Part shown: in pieces, positions 42,565 through 47,097 of the stretch
How the letters are laid out: every line of letters starts with the position of its first letter
How positions within the stretch are numbered: the first letter of the stretch is position 1
DNA from: Lachnospiraceae bacterium
Lineage (GTDB): Bacteria; Bacillota; Clostridia; Lachnospirales; Lachnospiraceae
Assembly: GCA_014239155.1 (NCBI GenBank)
Contig: JAAZZQ010000017.1
Location: forward strand, 1-64,000
DNA length: 64,000 nt
Direction: 5' to 3'
The notes under the pieces: model-generated
Database searches by the model: none
What the model saw: the letters and a program-made list of their open reading frames with translations, nothing else
What the model was told of the DNA's origin: nothing
Position numbers and translations under genes: made by a program

Positions 42565-43404
42565 ATGAAAGTAGTTGAAAAACAAACATTAGATGAGGAG
42601 CGCGCTTTGTATGGAAGTAAAGGAATTCTGATAAAGGAATGTTCTTTTGATGGTCCAGCGGATGGAGAAAGTGCGGTAAAAGAGTCCTCAGATGTTCAGG
42701 TAAACAAATGTTTCTTTAACTTGCGCTATCCATTCTGGCATGTGCATGGATTGACCATTCATAATTCTGAGATGACACCACTGTGTCGCGCTGCGCTTTG
42801 GTATTCTGACCATGTGGAAGTTACAGATACAAAAATGTATGGTATTAAGGCGTTTCGTGAGTGCAGTGATGTGGTAATTCGCGATTGTGATATTATTTCG
42901 CCAGAGTTTGGCTGGTTTGTGAAAAATATTGAAATGACAAATTCTGTGGCAGAAAGCGAGTACTTTATGATGCGCTCAGAGAATATCACATTTAAAAATG
43001 TAACATTTAAGGGAAAGTATTCGTTCCAATACATAAAAAATGCTGTGTTTGAAAATTGTAATTTTGATACAAAAGACGCTTTCTGGCACGGTGAAAATGT
43101 TATTGTGCGAAACAGTGTTGTGAAAGGGGAGTATCTTGCATGGTATGCGGATGGACTCACCTTTGAAAATTGTAAAATTATTGGCACGCAACCGCTATGT
43201 TACTGCAAAAATTTAAAGTTGGTTGACTGCGAGATGATAGAGACGGACCTTTGCTTTGAGAAATCTGAGGTGGAGGCACAAATAACAACACCTGTGATTA
43301 GCATTAAAAATCCATTGTCAGGGACCATTGTTGTGCCGGCGGTAGATGAGATTATTATGGATGATGCAAATGCAAAAGGTAAAATTCGTTACAGTTCAGT
43401 CTAG
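42565..43404 (+). CDS. DUF3737 right-handed beta-helix protein
   Basis: A 279-residue protein of the DUF3737 family. Short repeating units such as VQVNKCFFN, LTIHNSEMT, VEVTDTKMY, VVIRDCDII and ITFKNVTFKG run through most of it, which is the pattern of a right-handed parallel beta-helix as in pectate lyases. Family members are widespread in gut Firmicutes and Lactobacillales and have no known activity. There is no signal peptide, so it should be cytoplasmic. Its last codons and stop overlap the left end of a family-2 repeat. Confidence 0.85.
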   Translation: MKVVEKQTLDEERALYGSKGILIKECSFDGPADGESAVKESSDVQVNKCFFNLRYPFWHVHGLTIHNSEMTPLCRAALWYSDHVEVTDTKMYGIKAFRECSDVVIRDCDIISPEFGWFVKNIEMTNSVAESEYFMMRSENITFKNVTFKGKYSFQYIKNAVFENCNFDTKDAFWHGENVIVRNSVVKGEYLAWYADGLTFENCKIIGTQPLCYCKNLKLVDCEMIETDLCFEKSEVEAQITTPVISIKNPLSGTIVVPAVDEIIMDDANAKGKIRYSSV

Positions 43405-43541
43405 GACTTTGCATTTACTGCAAATTATGGCTTTATAAGCCACGTAAAACTGTGTAGTGGTAGAGATACATCAAGCCACCACGAAGTGGTTTTGCATGGC
43501 TTGATGTCTGTAACAGGAAGCCAAAGGCTGAACTCTGTTAC
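43389..43541 (+). repeat. Family-2 structured element, copy 1
   Basis: A 153-base element. It starts with GTTACAGTTCAG (43389-43400) inside the 3' end of the DUF3737 gene and ends CTGAACTCTGTTAC (43528-43541). Inside: TTTGCA-TTTAC-TGCAAA hairpin; a compound hairpin with outer stem ACATCAAGCCA (43468-43478)/TGGCTTGATGT (43497-43507), inner CCAC-GAA-GTGG, and one-sided bulge TTTTGCA; then GTAACAG (43510-43516) pairing with CTGTTAC (43535-43541). The rest of the gap to 43643 is AT-rich with no gene. Confidence 0.75.
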
Positions 43542-43643
43542 TAAAATTCAAATCGTTGCTTAGATAGGGCTTGAAAAAGGTTTTAAAGTGTGCTATGGTA
43601 AAGAAAAGCAGAGGATTTTCTATATTTTAGGAGGTATTTGGAT

Positions 43644-44129
43644 ATGAAAAAATTGTTGGCTATGGGACTTGCCTGTGCAGTAATGCTCGCTCCGGCGTTT
43701 TCCGTAAATGCCGCAGAAGAGGTTGAGACCTGTCATATCGGAGGCTGTAAATTAGGGGAATGTTTTATGGATGCAGACGGTGATGGAATCTGTGGAAATC
43801 ACTACTTCGTTGATGAAGATGGCGATGGAATTTGCGATTTTCATTGCTATTCAGATGTCAATACAGACGGAATCTGTGACTATTTTGTAGATGCGGATGA
43901 GGATGGAATCTGCGATCACTGTCATGATCATGGAAAACCAGTTCCAGCAAGTACACTGGATGGTGCTGCAAGCACCACAGTAGCTCCAAGCACACCTACA
44001 GTAACCTATGCAGCGCCAGCTCCTACTGTGACCTACACAACACCTACTGTTACTTATGATCCCAATTATTATTATGGATGTCATAGCAGCAGGCATCACA
44101 GCAGTGGACATCATGGACGTTGCTGGTAA
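43644..44129 (+). CDS. Secreted protein with DxDxDGxC repeats and a His/Cys tail
   Basis: A 161-residue secreted protein. A typical signal peptide ends near SVNAAEE. Residues about 45-100 hold four repeats of Asp-rich, cysteine-containing loops (DADGDGIC, DEDGDGIC, DVNTDGIC, DADEDGIC), similar to calcium-binding loops of dockerins or thrombospondin type-3 repeats but with cysteines at every turn. A Thr/Pro/Val-rich linker follows (APAPTVTYTTPTVTY), ending in a histidine- and cysteine-rich tail (CHSSRHHSSGHHGRCW). There is no sortase motif. Metal binding is likely; calcium for the loops and a transition metal for the tail is inference. The ATG at 43644 follows AGGAGG. Confidence 0.8.
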   Translation: MKKLLAMGLACAVMLAPAFSVNAAEEVETCHIGGCKLGECFMDADGDGICGNHYFVDEDGDGICDFHCYSDVNTDGICDYFVDADEDGICDHCHDHGKPVPASTLDGAASTTVAPSTPTVTYAAPAPTVTYTTPTVTYDPNYYYGCHSSRHHSSGHHGRCW

Positions 44130-44156
44130 ATCTTTTCGATAGGTAGAGAGCACGAA

Positions 44157-44194
44157 CTCTGAGAAAGTGTGACAGGGTGTAGTTCTCCTCAGAG
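44157..44194. repeat. Hairpin downstream of the secreted-protein gene
   Basis: CTCTGAG (44157-44163) pairs with CTCAGAG (44188-44194) across a 24-base loop. No T-run follows. It lies in the 514-base gene-free stretch 44130-44643. Confidence 0.4.
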
Positions 44195-44260
44195 CATTAT
44201 AAGAATTGTTGTAAGCAAACTTTCGCAGTTCTAAGAGAGTAGTTTTGTATTTATGCGCAG

Positions 44261-44338
44261 ACCTGCGCAGAGGAAATATGCCACTAAAGTGGCGCGCAGG
44301 TCGCGCGGCGAGTAGGGAAGATAAGACTTCCCTACTCG
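44261..44338 (+). repeat. Family-1 structured element, copy D
   Basis: Nearly identical to copy C: outer stem ACCTGCGC/GCGCAGGT, box AGAGGAAATA (44269-44278), inner hairpin GCCAC-TAAA-GTGGC (44280-44293), linker CGCGCGG, and hairpin CGAGTAGGGAAG / CTTCCCTACTCG (44309-44338). It lies 26 kb from copies B and C. Confidence 0.85.
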
Positions 44339-44376
44339 ATTAATTTGTATATGTACGAAATCTCTAGCTTTTTTGG

Positions 44377-44404
44377 AAAAAACACCTTTTTGGAGGTGTT
44401 TTTT
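44377..44404 (+). terminator. Strong intrinsic terminator
   Basis: AAAAAACACCT with AGGTGTTTTTT and a six-base loop, followed by more T. It lies 38 bases after copy D and would end transcripts running through the secreted-protein gene and that element, or a small RNA from this region. Confidence 0.8.
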
Positions 44405-44466
44405 TTCTGCACAAGGCACCCAAAGAATGGAAATTGGTAGGCAATAAAGAATTTAAATAAAAGATA

Positions 44467-44602
44467 GTAACAGTTCAGGCAGGTATTTGCACTGTGCTGC
44501 AAATACCGTAGGAAAGCGTGGTGGCTGCAAGCAAAAATTCATCGCCGAAGGCGATTTTGTATGAATTTTTGCCTGTAACAGTGAAGGTATCTGAACTGTT
44601 AC
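44467..44602 (+). repeat. Family-2 structured element, copy 2
   Basis: A 136-base element with perfect 12-base ends GTAACAGTTCAG / CTGAACTGTTAC. Inside: ten-base hairpin GGTATTTGCA (44482-44491)/TGCAAATACC (44498-44507); compound hairpin GCAAAAATTCAT (44531-44542)/ATGAATTTTTGC (44561-44572) with inner CGCC-GAA-GGCG and bulge ATTTTGT; and GTAACAG at 44575-44581, which can pair with the same CTGTTAC used by the outer ends. It ends 42 bases before rtcB. Confidence 0.85.
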
Positions 44603-44643
44603 AAAAGATATTCGTATAACATTTGGAAAGGAAAAAGGATTTT

Positions 44644-45780
44644 ATGATTACAATATACGGAAAATATACAAATGCGATTGTTTATACAACGGAGAATGAA
44701 CAGTATGCAATGGATGACTATGCGCGCAAGCAGTTACAGATGATTTGCGACCACCCTTGTGCCGCAGGAAGCAAGATTCGCGTTATGCCAGATGTGCATC
44801 CCGGAAAGGTGGGAACTATTGGGTTGACAATGACAGTGAGGGATTTGCTGATGCCAAATCTTGTCGGGGTAGATATTGGTTGTGGCATGACAATTGCAAA
44901 ACTGAAAGCGAAACGTCTGGAATGTCAAAAATTGGATACAATTATTCGTGATAATGTGCCTGTTGGTGGTGCAGTCAGAAAGAACTGTCATAAACTGAGT
45001 GATAAAATTGCACTTCGCAGACTGCATTGCTATAAGGCGATTGAGGAGGCAAAGGCGGAGCGCAGTATTGGAACCCTTGGCGGTGGCAATCATTTTATTG
45101 AAGTGGATAAAGACGAAGAGGATACACTTTACCTAGTAGTCCATTCTGGTAGTCGCCACCTTGGCATGGAAGTGACAGAGTATTATTTAAAGGAAGGACA
45201 AAAAGAATCTCAGATGAAAAAGCAAGGTCATGCTCCATATGAATTGACTTGTCTGGAAGGAGCGTTATTGCAGGATTATCTCTATGATTTGGAAATTGTG
45301 CAGGAGTTTGCGCGTCTGAATAGAGAAGCGATGATTGATGAGATTACGCGCGGTATGAAATGGAAGGTACAAGACAGTTATACTTGCATTCACAACTATA
45401 TTGATTTTTCAAAAGATGTGCCTCTTTTAAGAAAGGGGGCAATTAGCGCGCAAGAAGGTGAGCAGGTTATTATTCCAATGAATATGCGTGATGGAATTAT
45501 TTTAGGGACAGGGCTTGGCAATGTGGACTGGAATCAGTCGGCTCCGCATGGTTCTGGGCGTGTTTATAGGCGCTCAGAAGTGAAGGAGCATCACACTGTC
45601 TCTGAGTTTAAAAAGGCGATGGAGGGAATTTATTCCATTTGCATCAATAAGGATACCTTGGATGAGTCCCCGTTTGCGTATCGTAAGATAGAAGATATGG
45701 TGCCAGTAATCGAGGAGACTGTAAAGATAGAGAAAGTTATTAAGCCAGTCTATAATTTTAAGGCAGGTGCGGAGAGATAA
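44644..45780 (+). CDS. rtcB: RtcB-family RNA ligase
   Basis: A protein of 378 residues in the RtcB family, which joins 2',3'-cyclic phosphate (or 3'-phosphate) to 5'-OH RNA ends using GTP and Mn2+. Metal-ligand C80 lies in VGVDIGCGM, further ligands in GTLGGGNHFIEVD and VHSGSRHLG, and the histidine to be guanylylated is H302 in SAPHGSGR. It is shorter than E. coli RtcB (about 408). I start at the ATG at 44644 with AAGGA upstream. No RtcA or RtcR-like regulator is present. It is first in a cluster with a CMP-kinase-like gene and an unknown, bracketed by inverted family-2 elements. Confidence 0.9.
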   Translation: MITIYGKYTNAIVYTTENEQYAMDDYARKQLQMICDHPCAAGSKIRVMPDVHPGKVGTIGLTMTVRDLLMPNLVGVDIGCGMTIAKLKAKRLECQKLDTIIRDNVPVGGAVRKNCHKLSDKIALRRLHCYKAIEEAKAERSIGTLGGGNHFIEVDKDEEDTLYLVVHSGSRHLGMEVTEYYLKEGQKESQMKKQGHAPYELTCLEGALLQDYLYDLEIVQEFARLNREAMIDEITRGMKWKVQDSYTCIHNYIDFSKDVPLLRKGAISAQEGEQVIIPMNMRDGIILGTGLGNVDWNQSAPHGSGRVYRRSEVKEHHTVSEFKKAMEGIYSICINKDTLDESPFAYRKIEDMVPVIEETVKIEKVIKPVYNFKAGAER

Positions 45781-45792
45781 GGAGGTATTAAA

Positions 45793-46407
45793 TTGATTAT
45801 TACGATTAGTCGAGAGACAGGAAGTGGTGGACATACGGTAGGTAGATTGTTGGCAGAGCGATTGGGCTATGATTTTTATGATAAAGAAATTGTGGCATCT
45901 GTGGCAAGCAAAATGGGGATTGATGAGAAACTCATTTTGGAAAATGGTGAGAATATGTCTGATCAAGATTATATTGATATGAAAAGTGGCTTTGTGCCAT
46001 ACTACAGAAAAGCACAAGTGCCTTACGAGGAAATTAAAGAGGCACAGGACAAGGTAATTAAAAGTATTGCAGAGAAAGGAAACTGTGTGATTGTAGGGCG
46101 CGGCGCAGATTATATTCTCAGGGAGCGCGATGATGTTTTTCATGTGTTTATTCACGCGGATATGGAGCATCGTGTGAAACGTGTCCAGCGTCATGAGGGC
46201 GTGACAGACCAAGAAGAGCGTGTCCGAAAAGAGCTTATGCAAAAAGACCGTTCAAGGGCTACTTACTATAGATATTTTACACAAAAAGAGTGGGGAAAAG
46301 TTGAGAATTATACACTCTCATTGGATTCTGGTATCTTTACAAAAACACAGTGCATGGAACTGATTGTTCAGGCAATAAAGATGAAAGAAAAAAACAAAGA
46401 GGCATAA
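45793..46407 (+). CDS. Cytidylate-kinase-like family protein
   Basis: A 204-residue P-loop nucleotide kinase of the cytidylate-kinase-like family (AAK6/Cytidylate_kin2). The N terminus ITISRETGSGGHTVGRLLAE contains a G-S-G-G variant P-loop, followed by GYDFYDKEIV and a later IVGRGADYIL and RVKRVQRHEGV. True CMP kinase is usually about 220 residues with a stricter GPAGSGK loop, so the substrate here is uncertain. The start is TTG at 45793 behind AAGGAGG. It lies 12 bases after rtcB and one base before the next gene, so it is in the same operon. Confidence 0.82.
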   Translation: MIITISRETGSGGHTVGRLLAERLGYDFYDKEIVASVASKMGIDEKLILENGENMSDQDYIDMKSGFVPYYRKAQVPYEEIKEAQDKVIKSIAEKGNCVIVGRGADYILRERDDVFHVFIHADMEHRVKRVQRHEGVTDQEERVRKELMQKDRSRATYYRYFTQKEWGKVENYTLSLDSGIFTKTQCMELIVQAIKMKEKNKEA

Positions 46408-46408
46408 A

Positions 46409-46915
46409 ATGGAAAAAAGTATATATCATACCATTATATTAAAAGAAGATATTGAAAAATTGCTTACACTTAGCGATAATGAAAAAAAAGAACTTCTTTT
46501 TGTACTGTTATGGGAATATCTGCCTTGGAAATCTTTAGAGGAAATGAATGAAGTACAAAAGACACTATATCTTGCCTCGAAATTGGAGGACATCTGTCAG
46601 ATTGACATGCTCCCTTCTTTGTCTGCGGAAAAAGAGTTTTTTCTTGCTTTGCCCGAAATAAAAAAAGCATATGAAAACTTAGGTGCATTCAAATCGGCGG
46701 CACTTTTAGATGAATTTATATCATTGATACCTGCTAAAACAGTGCCTGCATGGGAATGGTTTTTTGAGGGAGAACGAGGAGATATTATTGAAAGAATTGA
46801 CGGTGAATTATGTGATTATCCAGATGGACTTATGATTAATTTTTATATTGCGTATCTCTCTAAACCTCAAAATGCAAAGCAACTTTTTACAGGGCTAAAT
46901 AATCGATCCCTATAA
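46409..46915 (+). CDS. Hypothetical protein, possibly DMP19-like
   Basis: A 168-residue acidic helical protein. The stretch LPEIKKAYENLGAFKSAALLDEFISLIP resembles the DMP19/DUF4375 pattern, in which a helical domain lies near an A-x-x-x-I-G-A turn; the match is only suggestive. There is no signal peptide or membrane helix. It starts one base after the kinase-like stop. The family-2 element copy 3 begins eight bases after its stop codon. Confidence 0.65.
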   Translation: MEKSIYHTIILKEDIEKLLTLSDNEKKELLFVLLWEYLPWKSLEEMNEVQKTLYLASKLEDICQIDMLPSLSAEKEFFLALPEIKKAYENLGAFKSAALLDEFISLIPAKTVPAWEWFFEGERGDIIERIDGELCDYPDGLMINFYIAYLSKPQNAKQLFTGLNNRSL

Positions 46916-46922
46916 AGGCTAT

Positions 46923-47058
46923 GTAACAGTTCAGACAAGCTGACCTGTTACTGCAAAAATCCATTAAAAATCGCCTTTGGCGATGGGATTTTTGTTCTCA
47001 AGTTTTATGTTTTCGCACGGTCAGCGCAGTAAATGCGCAGACCTATCTGAACTGTTAC
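46923..47058 (-). repeat. Family-2 structured element, copy 3 (inverted)
   Basis: Also 136 bases with perfect ends GTAACAGTTCAG / CTGAACTGTTAC. Aligning its reverse complement with copy 2 recovers the same order: hairpin GGTC-x-GCGCA (arms 47019-47028 and 47034-47043), compound hairpin (outer CAAAAATCC 46954-46962 / GGATTTTTG 46986-46994; inner ATCGCC-TTT-GGCGAT), and the competing CTGTTAC (46945-46951). Stem sequences differ from copies 1 and 2 but pairing is kept. Confidence 0.85.
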
Positions 47059-47097
47059 AAGGCTATTACAAATTTTCTAAACTTATTAGATAAAAAC

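Follow-up and report, generated by a model that had tools for sequence, protein, structure and literature searches.

Small inverted-repeat elements with a covarying fold in Lachnospiraceae, probably moved by IS66-family transposases

The window analysed here, the whole 64,000-nt stretch at positions 1–64,000 of contig JAAZZQ010000017.1 (assembly GCA_014239155.1, Lachnospiraceae bacterium; its genome is coded G000 below), holds three copies of a short inverted-repeat element of ∼136 bp. The copies sit beside genes for a DUF3737 protein, an RtcB-like protein and a cytidylate-kinase-like protein, and beside an open reading frame (ORF) with a sub-threshold DMP19 match. Read from the sequence, all three carry 12-bp inverted ends like GTAACAGTTCAG and share the internal order that the first-pass annotation had described: terminal inverted repeat (TIR), hairpin 1, a linker, hairpin 2 (an inner stem with a one-sided T-rich bulge), GTAACAG and the right TIR. 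Its coordinates stand for copies 2 and 3; copy 1 begins one base earlier than it had been placed, at 43388 (Table 1). Each copy is also flanked by a perfect 8-bp target duplication (TAAAATTC, AAAAGATA and AAGGCTAT, respectively), which had gone unremarked. We conclude that the copies are probably non-autonomous transposons, namely miniature inverted-repeat transposable elements (MITEs) that use IS66-family transposases, and that their fold probably aids propagation.

The element is highly repeated in its own genome. Copy 2 gave 58 BLAST matches at E ≤ 10, and a covariance model built from 21 copies (R1) gave 141 matches at E ≤ 1. The end sequence GTAACAGTTCAG has 232 occurrences when up to one mismatch is allowed, compared with 41 for the reversed pattern; GTTACAGTTCAG, GTTACTGTTCAC and GTAACTGTTCAG are further end variants. 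Target duplications were counted in 125 of the 141 model matches (the 16 left out are two partial matches and those weaker than ∼8e-4), less one copy outside the fetched DNA and one without a right flank. Among the remaining 123 copies with both flanks, the 8-bp duplication is 8/8 in 41, 7/8 in 25 and 6/8 in 14, against 0.4%, 0.1% and 1.1% when left and right flanks were shuffled among partners, a control that may contain self-pairings. Duplication lengths of 5–7 and 9–11 bp yielded at most two perfect cases each. The duplications recur in other records (8/8 in 45/86 rows and 7/8 in 13/86) and in a one-per-genus set (14/31 and 7/31). In a nested pair, excising the inner copy together with one duplication recovers an outer copy flanked on both sides by GATTTGTA. 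Copies 98–99% alike carry perfect duplications in the window's genome, which indicates recent movement there. Of 144 pooled copies with duplications of at least 7/8, 102 (39 of 66 in the own genome alone) measure 133–137 bp, although near-duplicate rows were kept in these counts and the model favours that length. The element thus has TIRs, a target duplication of fixed length, a short body without a transposase gene, and many copies. The earlier suggestion of a MITE-like repeat is borne out by these TIRs and duplications, by more than 100 dispersed copies, by the nested insertion and by IS66 elements with the same ends in relatives (see below).

Matches to the covariance model are common in the genus (30 of 36 genomes at a threshold of 0.001, the window's own included) and occur more widely in the family, where 41 of 299 genomes, each from a different genus, match at 1e-6. 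No matches were found in 24 genomes from other families of the same order. A pattern scan of named genomes found at least 111 stretches, of which 80 were listed and used. The titles of these 80 name Lachnospiraceae, Clostridiaceae, Clostridiales or Clostridia, or genera including Blautia, Eisenbergiella, Dorea, Hungatella, Eubacterium, Fusicatenibacter and Clostridium, with one given only as Bacterium D16-56; [Clostridium] symbiosum ATCC 14940 and Blautia parvula are among them. With copy 2 as query, and at the sensitivity of that search, no copy was found in 50,697 phage and 72,556 plasmid records. A known Rfam family was likewise rejected. The window has no match at gathering score, its five matches by E-value (one of which, mir-544, overlaps copy 1) are at chance level and far under their gathering scores, and six loci of other records gave no match; the Rfam check proposed in the first-pass annotation therefore returned no existing family.

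The internal architecture is conserved through widely differing sequences. Hairpin 1 is formed by GGTCTGCGCA/TGCGCTGACC and variants, followed by a linker near CGTAAGAAAA. The outer arms of hairpin 2 vary widely (GCAAAAATCC, GCATCAAGCC, GCATCCAGCCC, GCATCCGGCCC and others), around a core that in most copies reads CAT-(stem with a GAA-type loop)-ATTTTnnATG. The end sequence recurs inside the element (as GTAACAG or GTAACAGTTCAG), mostly 26–32 bases before the right end. Compared with shuffled sequences, the two strands of copy 2 fold with z scores of −5.6 and −7.8, those of copy 3 with −5.7 and −6.4, and copy 1 with −3.6. Trimming 12 bases from each end lowers these to −2.1, −2.6 and −3.0 for copies 1, 2 and 3, so the TIR stem is part of the folding signal. 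In four loci (L258, L262, L322 and L324, from RUG11237 and RUG231) the hairpin 2 bulge lies, by eye, on the 5′ side, as if the module were inverted; the rest is alike. A 55-bp palindrome at L293:1702-1756 consists of a mirrored left end and hairpin 1, and has no target duplication.

The covarying stems first proposed from the three window copies hold in 110 distinct own-genome rows, beyond both shuffled and slid controls. In these rows 92.1% of cells are paired, compared with 80.8% in shuffled and 28–39% in slid versions, and 29 of 34 pairs (20 of the 22 outside the TIRs) are doubly changed. Among 86 distinct rows from other records, 92.8% are paired (83.4% shuffled, 58.5% in one slid version) with double changes at 24 of 34 pairs, 17 of 22 internally. 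A third set (31 rows), which combines two own-genome rows with 29 that represent 29 other genera, is 93.3% paired (77.7% shuffled), with 28 of 34 and 19 of 22 pairs doubly changed across 30 genera. None of 500 shuffles reached any of five covariation measures in any of the three row sets, although related rows can exceed shuffles without structure. One alignment, A6, includes five rows from CASJPF01 (L249, L271, L284, L317 and L325), a seemingly near-identical relative of the window's genome, as well as some near-duplicates. A chance origin of the repeat is rejected by its ends, its folding against shuffles and its covariation.

The first-pass annotation had also seen two mutually exclusive pairings of the 3′ segment, and these exist. 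Of 135 usable copies, the internal heptamer could be located in 130; it exactly complements the right end in 102 of them and equals the left end in 72. At positions where left and right ends disagree, it follows the right end 59 times, the left 19 times and neither 2 times, a bias to which linkage can contribute since the internal copy lies ∼30 bases from the right end. The local 3′ terminal hairpin, which excludes the TIR–TIR stem, thus covaries with the right end. Folds of single sequences prefer this local hairpin in some genera (e.g. L370, L371, L374, L377 and L380) and the TIR–TIR stem in others.

The pattern of change along the tree indicates where the fold is maintained. Between copies less than 4% apart at unpaired sites, paired and unpaired sites have diverged equally (0.021 vs 0.021) and 10% of changed pairs are double; between the most distant copies, paired sites lag behind unpaired ones (0.289 vs 0.429) and 59% of changed pairs are double. 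A tree of 83 copies shows pair-breaking in 60 of 136 pair events on terminal branches and 6 of 46 on internal branches (Fisher p 1.5e-4), while kept double changes account for 12/136 and 14/46. The contrast is weaker with looser inclusion (63/129 terminal vs 13/45 internal, p 0.02) and among cross-species rows (29/70 vs 7/33, p 0.05). These counts drop gapped copies, keeping 83 and 95 of the 110 own-genome rows and 58 of the 86 cross-species rows, and the count for alignment A6 leaves out a mismatch-prone pair of hairpin 1. The rate of change at paired relative to unpaired sites is 0.69 on terminal and 0.40 on internal branches. Pairs are therefore kept by double substitution in branches that give further copies and are broken much more in single resident copies. 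Because pair breaks are frequent on terminal and rare on internal branches, the fold seems to be selected mainly in spreading lineages and much less in resident copies. Across four branch sets, Watson–Crick pairs changed to G.T more often than to A.C (90 vs 46, pooled p 2e-4), and after correction for mutation bias the excess holds for G-C pairs (64/95, p 0.007). This asymmetry fits a single strand, whether of RNA or of DNA, better than a cruciform formed in double-stranded DNA.

Covariation might also arise without selection, through arm correction by template switching (quasi-palindrome correction) or through hairpin modules swapped between subfamilies. Long hairpin arms are known substrates of template switching, and mosaic copies exist: the copy at C41:85497 combines a left half from one subfamily with a right half from another. 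Correction would, however, be expected in all copies, whereas kept double changes differ between terminal and internal branches as given above. The excess of G.T over A.C is moreover unexpected from correction at the DNA level, and across 30 genera the fold is retained although the arm sequences differ. We regard this explanation as unlikely.

We find it quite unlikely that the copies are RNA elements useful to the host, acting in their mRNAs as leader, attenuator or switch, with the host keeping the fold. Such a role would accord with the strong covariation, with the single strand indicated by G.T over A.C and with some constraint that may remain on resident copies (the ratio of 0.69). It would also accord with the location of the copies, 121 of 124 of which lie outside ORFs of at least 90 aa. 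By simple ORFs rather than annotated genes, 82 lie between co-directional, 21 between divergent and 8 between convergent neighbours, with 10 undecided, and 51 of the co-directional cases are oriented with their neighbours and 31 against (p 0.035). A host function at resident sites is nonetheless hard to reconcile with the equal divergence of paired and unpaired sites in recently separated copies and with the frequency of pair breaks on terminal branches; there is also no Rfam match, and the DNA bears the marks of transposition. The first-pass annotation had considered a MITE-like repeat, an RNA element or both: the first reading is supported, and the way in which single copies decay argues against a role where they reside.

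The link of these MITEs to IS66 is drawn from their ends, their duplications and their relatives. Insertion sequences (ISs) of the IS66 family produce 8-bp direct repeats (PMC3281130, PMC11946415) and, according to the latter, have inverted repeats of 20–30 bp that start with GTAAGCG. The present elements lack coding capacity, measure ∼136 bp and share an inverted repeat of 12 bp; many copies begin GTAACAG, and so share GTAA and not GTAAGCG, while other subfamilies begin GTTA. PF03050, the Pfam family of IS66 ISs, is present in 18 of 38 genomes of the genus. One congener carries, at locus L104, an intact 2251-bp IS66 element with a 558-aa transposase (PF03050 at 3.7e-25), a 12/12 TIR, GTTACTGTTCAC, that also begins GTTA, and an 8/8 duplication, GCTGCTTT. 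One MITE subfamily in the window's genome has exactly this TIR, and the right end of that subfamily, read inwards (GTTACTGTTCACTCCG), agrees with the left end of L104 (GTTACTGTTCACTCCC) over 15 bases. A second locus, L113, is 441 bp long and has exact MITE ends around an open PF03050 remnant of the C-terminus of an IS66 transposase; a protein search with this remnant found matches in 9 of 200 family genomes at E ≤ 1e-8, the best at 1e-13 with 38% identity.

A survey of IS66 ends covered 30 loci from the genus and other genera, 20 with a locatable C-terminus and 10 without. At 11 of the 20 loci, one of six MITE end cores recurs exactly, no more than 260 bases past the C-terminus. Because five loci had suggested the cores, the fair count is 6/15, compared with 79/4000 random segments of the same loci (p 2.5e-7). 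Several IS families make 8-bp duplications, and a MITE of another such family (e.g. of IS256, ISL3, IS6 or IS1595 type) would fit the failure to find an IS66 gene in the window's genome, where these families were not searched for, but relatives have IS66 elements with ends of this kind and 8-bp duplications, and L113 is an IS66 remnant between exact MITE ends, making this very unlikely.

To our knowledge, the mechanism of the IS66 family is poorly understood. From the ends, duplications, copy number and distribution of the copies, together with the IS66 ends in the congener, we infer that an IS66-type transposase probably moves them. It would act in trans on the 12-bp ends, GTAACAGTTCAG or variants, and insertion would duplicate 8 bp of target. 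A folded single strand, hairpin 1 first, would help the element to propagate; this form could be single-stranded DNA or a transcript. In the simplest version, the fold would bring the ends of an otherwise stiff 136-bp DNA together in the transposase complex. After insertion, each copy would decay under much weaker constraint. We speculate that the terminal hairpin formed by the internal GTAACAG and the right end may set which form is presented. It is possible, if rather unlikely, that the folded strand is a working part of IS66 transposition, as a structure-specific substrate or guide, with the 3′ pairings gating exposure of the right end.

Shortened derivatives bear on the role of the hairpins. 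In 1.6 Mb of fetched DNA, some of it overlapping, there are seven solo units of 28–33 bp, each with two facing ends and a duplication of 7/8 or 8/8, a count without a chance control; three lie in the own genome and four in four other genomes (Table 1). Two of the own-genome units are identical 29-mers equal to the terminal segment of copy 3, each with its own 8-bp duplication. Deletion between the left end and its internal copy is the simplest origin for such units. None of nine copies of at most 120 bp with a duplication of at least 6/8 has a close sibling, which favours a contribution of the full fold to propagation; three of the nine, from different genomes, show weak mutual likeness (scores 0.52–0.58). 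A separate 187-bp MITE family has the same ends and another interior, with four copies in G000 at C8:276906-277092 (L079), C57:75317-75503 (L082), C41:54147-54333 (L086) and C45:160058-160244 (L081). Three of these have 8/8 duplications and one 7/8, and the family folds partly into two hairpins (interior z −3.4, −0.9, −2.7 and −7.7).

Several observations weigh against MITEs that are moved by IS66 transposases and helped by their fold. The alignments behind the covariation were made with a structure-favouring model and lean to its structure. Constraint on resident copies is weaker yet not absent, as the terminal-branch ratio of 0.69 indicates. Each of the four comparisons of G.T with A.C falls singly just short of 0.05, and the correction for mutation bias removes the excess at A-T pairs (26/41, p 0.16). 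Copy 1 and its kin have spread with an altered hairpin 1, and a unit without hairpins may move, because identical 29-bp derivatives sit at two sites. As to the transposase, a search of G000 for PF03050, and for no other transposase family, gave no match and hence no autonomous partner with the same ends. Nor was an intact IS66 element with exact GTAACAGTTCAG ends found, only the remnant L113, which lacks a duplication. Finally, PF03050 is in only slight excess in MITE-bearing genomes (20/41 vs 85/258 others, p 0.054).

Among known systems, integron attC sites are imperfect palindromes recognised by fold more than by sequence, a trait that these elements call to mind; the present elements differ in making 8-bp target duplications. 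BOX and RUP of Streptococcus pneumoniae are probably the closest in the way they work. They are small multi-copy repeats with TIRs, target duplications, strong folds paired through the TIRs and IS-like ends (PMC3049150). They differ in host family, in their partners (IS630-Spn1 for RUP and ISSpn2 for BOX) and in the modular build of BOX, and the word ‘compensatory’ is absent from that source. QMITE2 of Coxiella burnetii and other prokaryotic MITEs fall in a similar size class, with 7–9 bp direct repeats and a folded transcript, and have longer TIRs of 23–29 bp (PMC10969869); this 2024 review makes no use of the word IS66. MITECca01 (IS982) and MITEPsy1 (perhaps IS5) were likewise ascribed to a parental IS by shared ends (PMC9769881, PMC3189936). 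These belong to other IS families, MITEPsy1 makes 4-nt duplications, and the available text of those papers describes no conserved multi-hairpin architecture. Titles and abstracts in the open-licence literature yielded no such elements among MITEs with IS66, Lachnospiraceae or covarying folds. The present elements thus appear to form an undescribed, family-wide MITE group, present in numerous gut bacteria, that is tied to IS66 and whose fold is kept by selection during spread.

Such a group would have several consequences. Selection on structure could be placed mainly in spreading lineages and not in resident copies, and MITE hairpins, usually taken as regulators of neighbouring genes, may instead be parts of transposition. 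If the folded strand acts as proposed, the fold more than the sequence would be inherited across much of a bacterial family. Recognising the MITE family would also guard against taking its copies in Lachnospiraceae genomes for new riboswitches.

Table 1. Coordinates of the three window copies and of the solo units (window positions unless another record is named)
Feature	Position	Strand	Basis
Copy 1, left 8-bp target duplication, TAAAATTC	43380..43387		sequence, flank comparison
Copy 1, 154 bp, left TIR variant GTTACAGTTCAG, right end CTGAACTCTGTTAC	43388..43541	+	covariance-model E 2.1e-10
Copy 1, hairpin-1 region, altered: CTTTGCA/TGCAAA and GGCTT/AAGCC	43404..43441	+	sequence
Copy 1, hairpin 2, CATCAAGCC..GGCTTGATG, inner CCAC/GTGG, one-sided bulge	43469..43507	+	sequence, fold
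Copy 1, alternative terminal hairpin, internal GTAACAG with right end CTGTTAC	43510..43541	+	sequence, end comparison
Copy 1, right 8-bp target duplication, TAAAATTC	43542..43549		sequence, flank comparison
Copy 2, left 8-bp target duplication, AAAAGATA	44459..44466		sequence, flank comparison
Copy 2, 136 bp, canonical	44467..44602	+	sequence, covariance-model match
Copy 2, hairpin 1, GGTATTTGCA/TGCAAATACC	44482..44507	+	fold, covariation
Copy 2, hairpin 2, outer GCAAAAATTCAT/ATGAATTTTTGC, inner CGCC/GGCG, 3′-side bulge	44531..44572	+	fold, covariation
Copy 2, terminal hairpin, internal GTAACAG with right TIR, exclusive of TIR–TIR stem	44575..44602	+	sequence, end comparison
Copy 2, right 8-bp target duplication, AAAAGATA	44603..44610		sequence, flank comparison
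Copy 3, 8-bp target duplication, AAGGCTAT	46915..46922		sequence, flank comparison
Copy 3, 136 bp, canonical, inverted	46923..47058	-	covariance-model E 6.7e-34
Copy 3, terminal hairpin segment, 29 bp	46923..46951	-	sequence
Copy 3, hairpin 2	46954..46994	-	fold, covariation
Copy 3, hairpin 1, GGTCTGCGCA/TGCGCTGACC	47019..47043	-	fold, covariation
Copy 3, second 8-bp target duplication, AAGGCTAT	47059..47066		sequence, flank comparison
Solo unit (L076)	G000:C2:27604-27632		
Solo unit (L077)	G000:C57:94182-94210		
Solo unit	L041:638-666		
Solo unit	L270:4008-4036		
Solo unit	L281:4041-4069		
Solo unit	L296:4035-4062		
Solo unit	L134:1158-1190		

Within the window, the sequence of the altered hairpin-1 region of copy 1 allows two small hairpins, of which the predicted fold has the first only. 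Copy 2 ends 20 bp upstream of the listed TTG start of the RtcB-like ORF and 41 bp upstream of its first ATG. The first base of the copy 3 duplication at 46915..46922 is the last stop-codon base of the ORF at 46409-46915. An ORF downstream of the window copies is presumably a leucyl-tRNA synthetase. Copy 3 is absent from G022 and copy 2 from G033 and G023, with flanks too diverged for a base-exact empty site; G033 has a short end-like remnant at the position of copy 2. In G022, a 179-bp stretch that has such ends but no duplication (L138:1059-1237) lies in the spacer separating the RtcB-like gene from the kinase gene; the window spacer lacks it. Between copies 1 and 2, positions 43638-44129 encode a small, secreted-looking protein without a Pfam match, with four DxDxDGICD-type repeats and a His-rich tail. 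The upstream DUF3737 gene (42565-43404) ends inside copy 1, where its stop codon is the TAG at 43402-43404.

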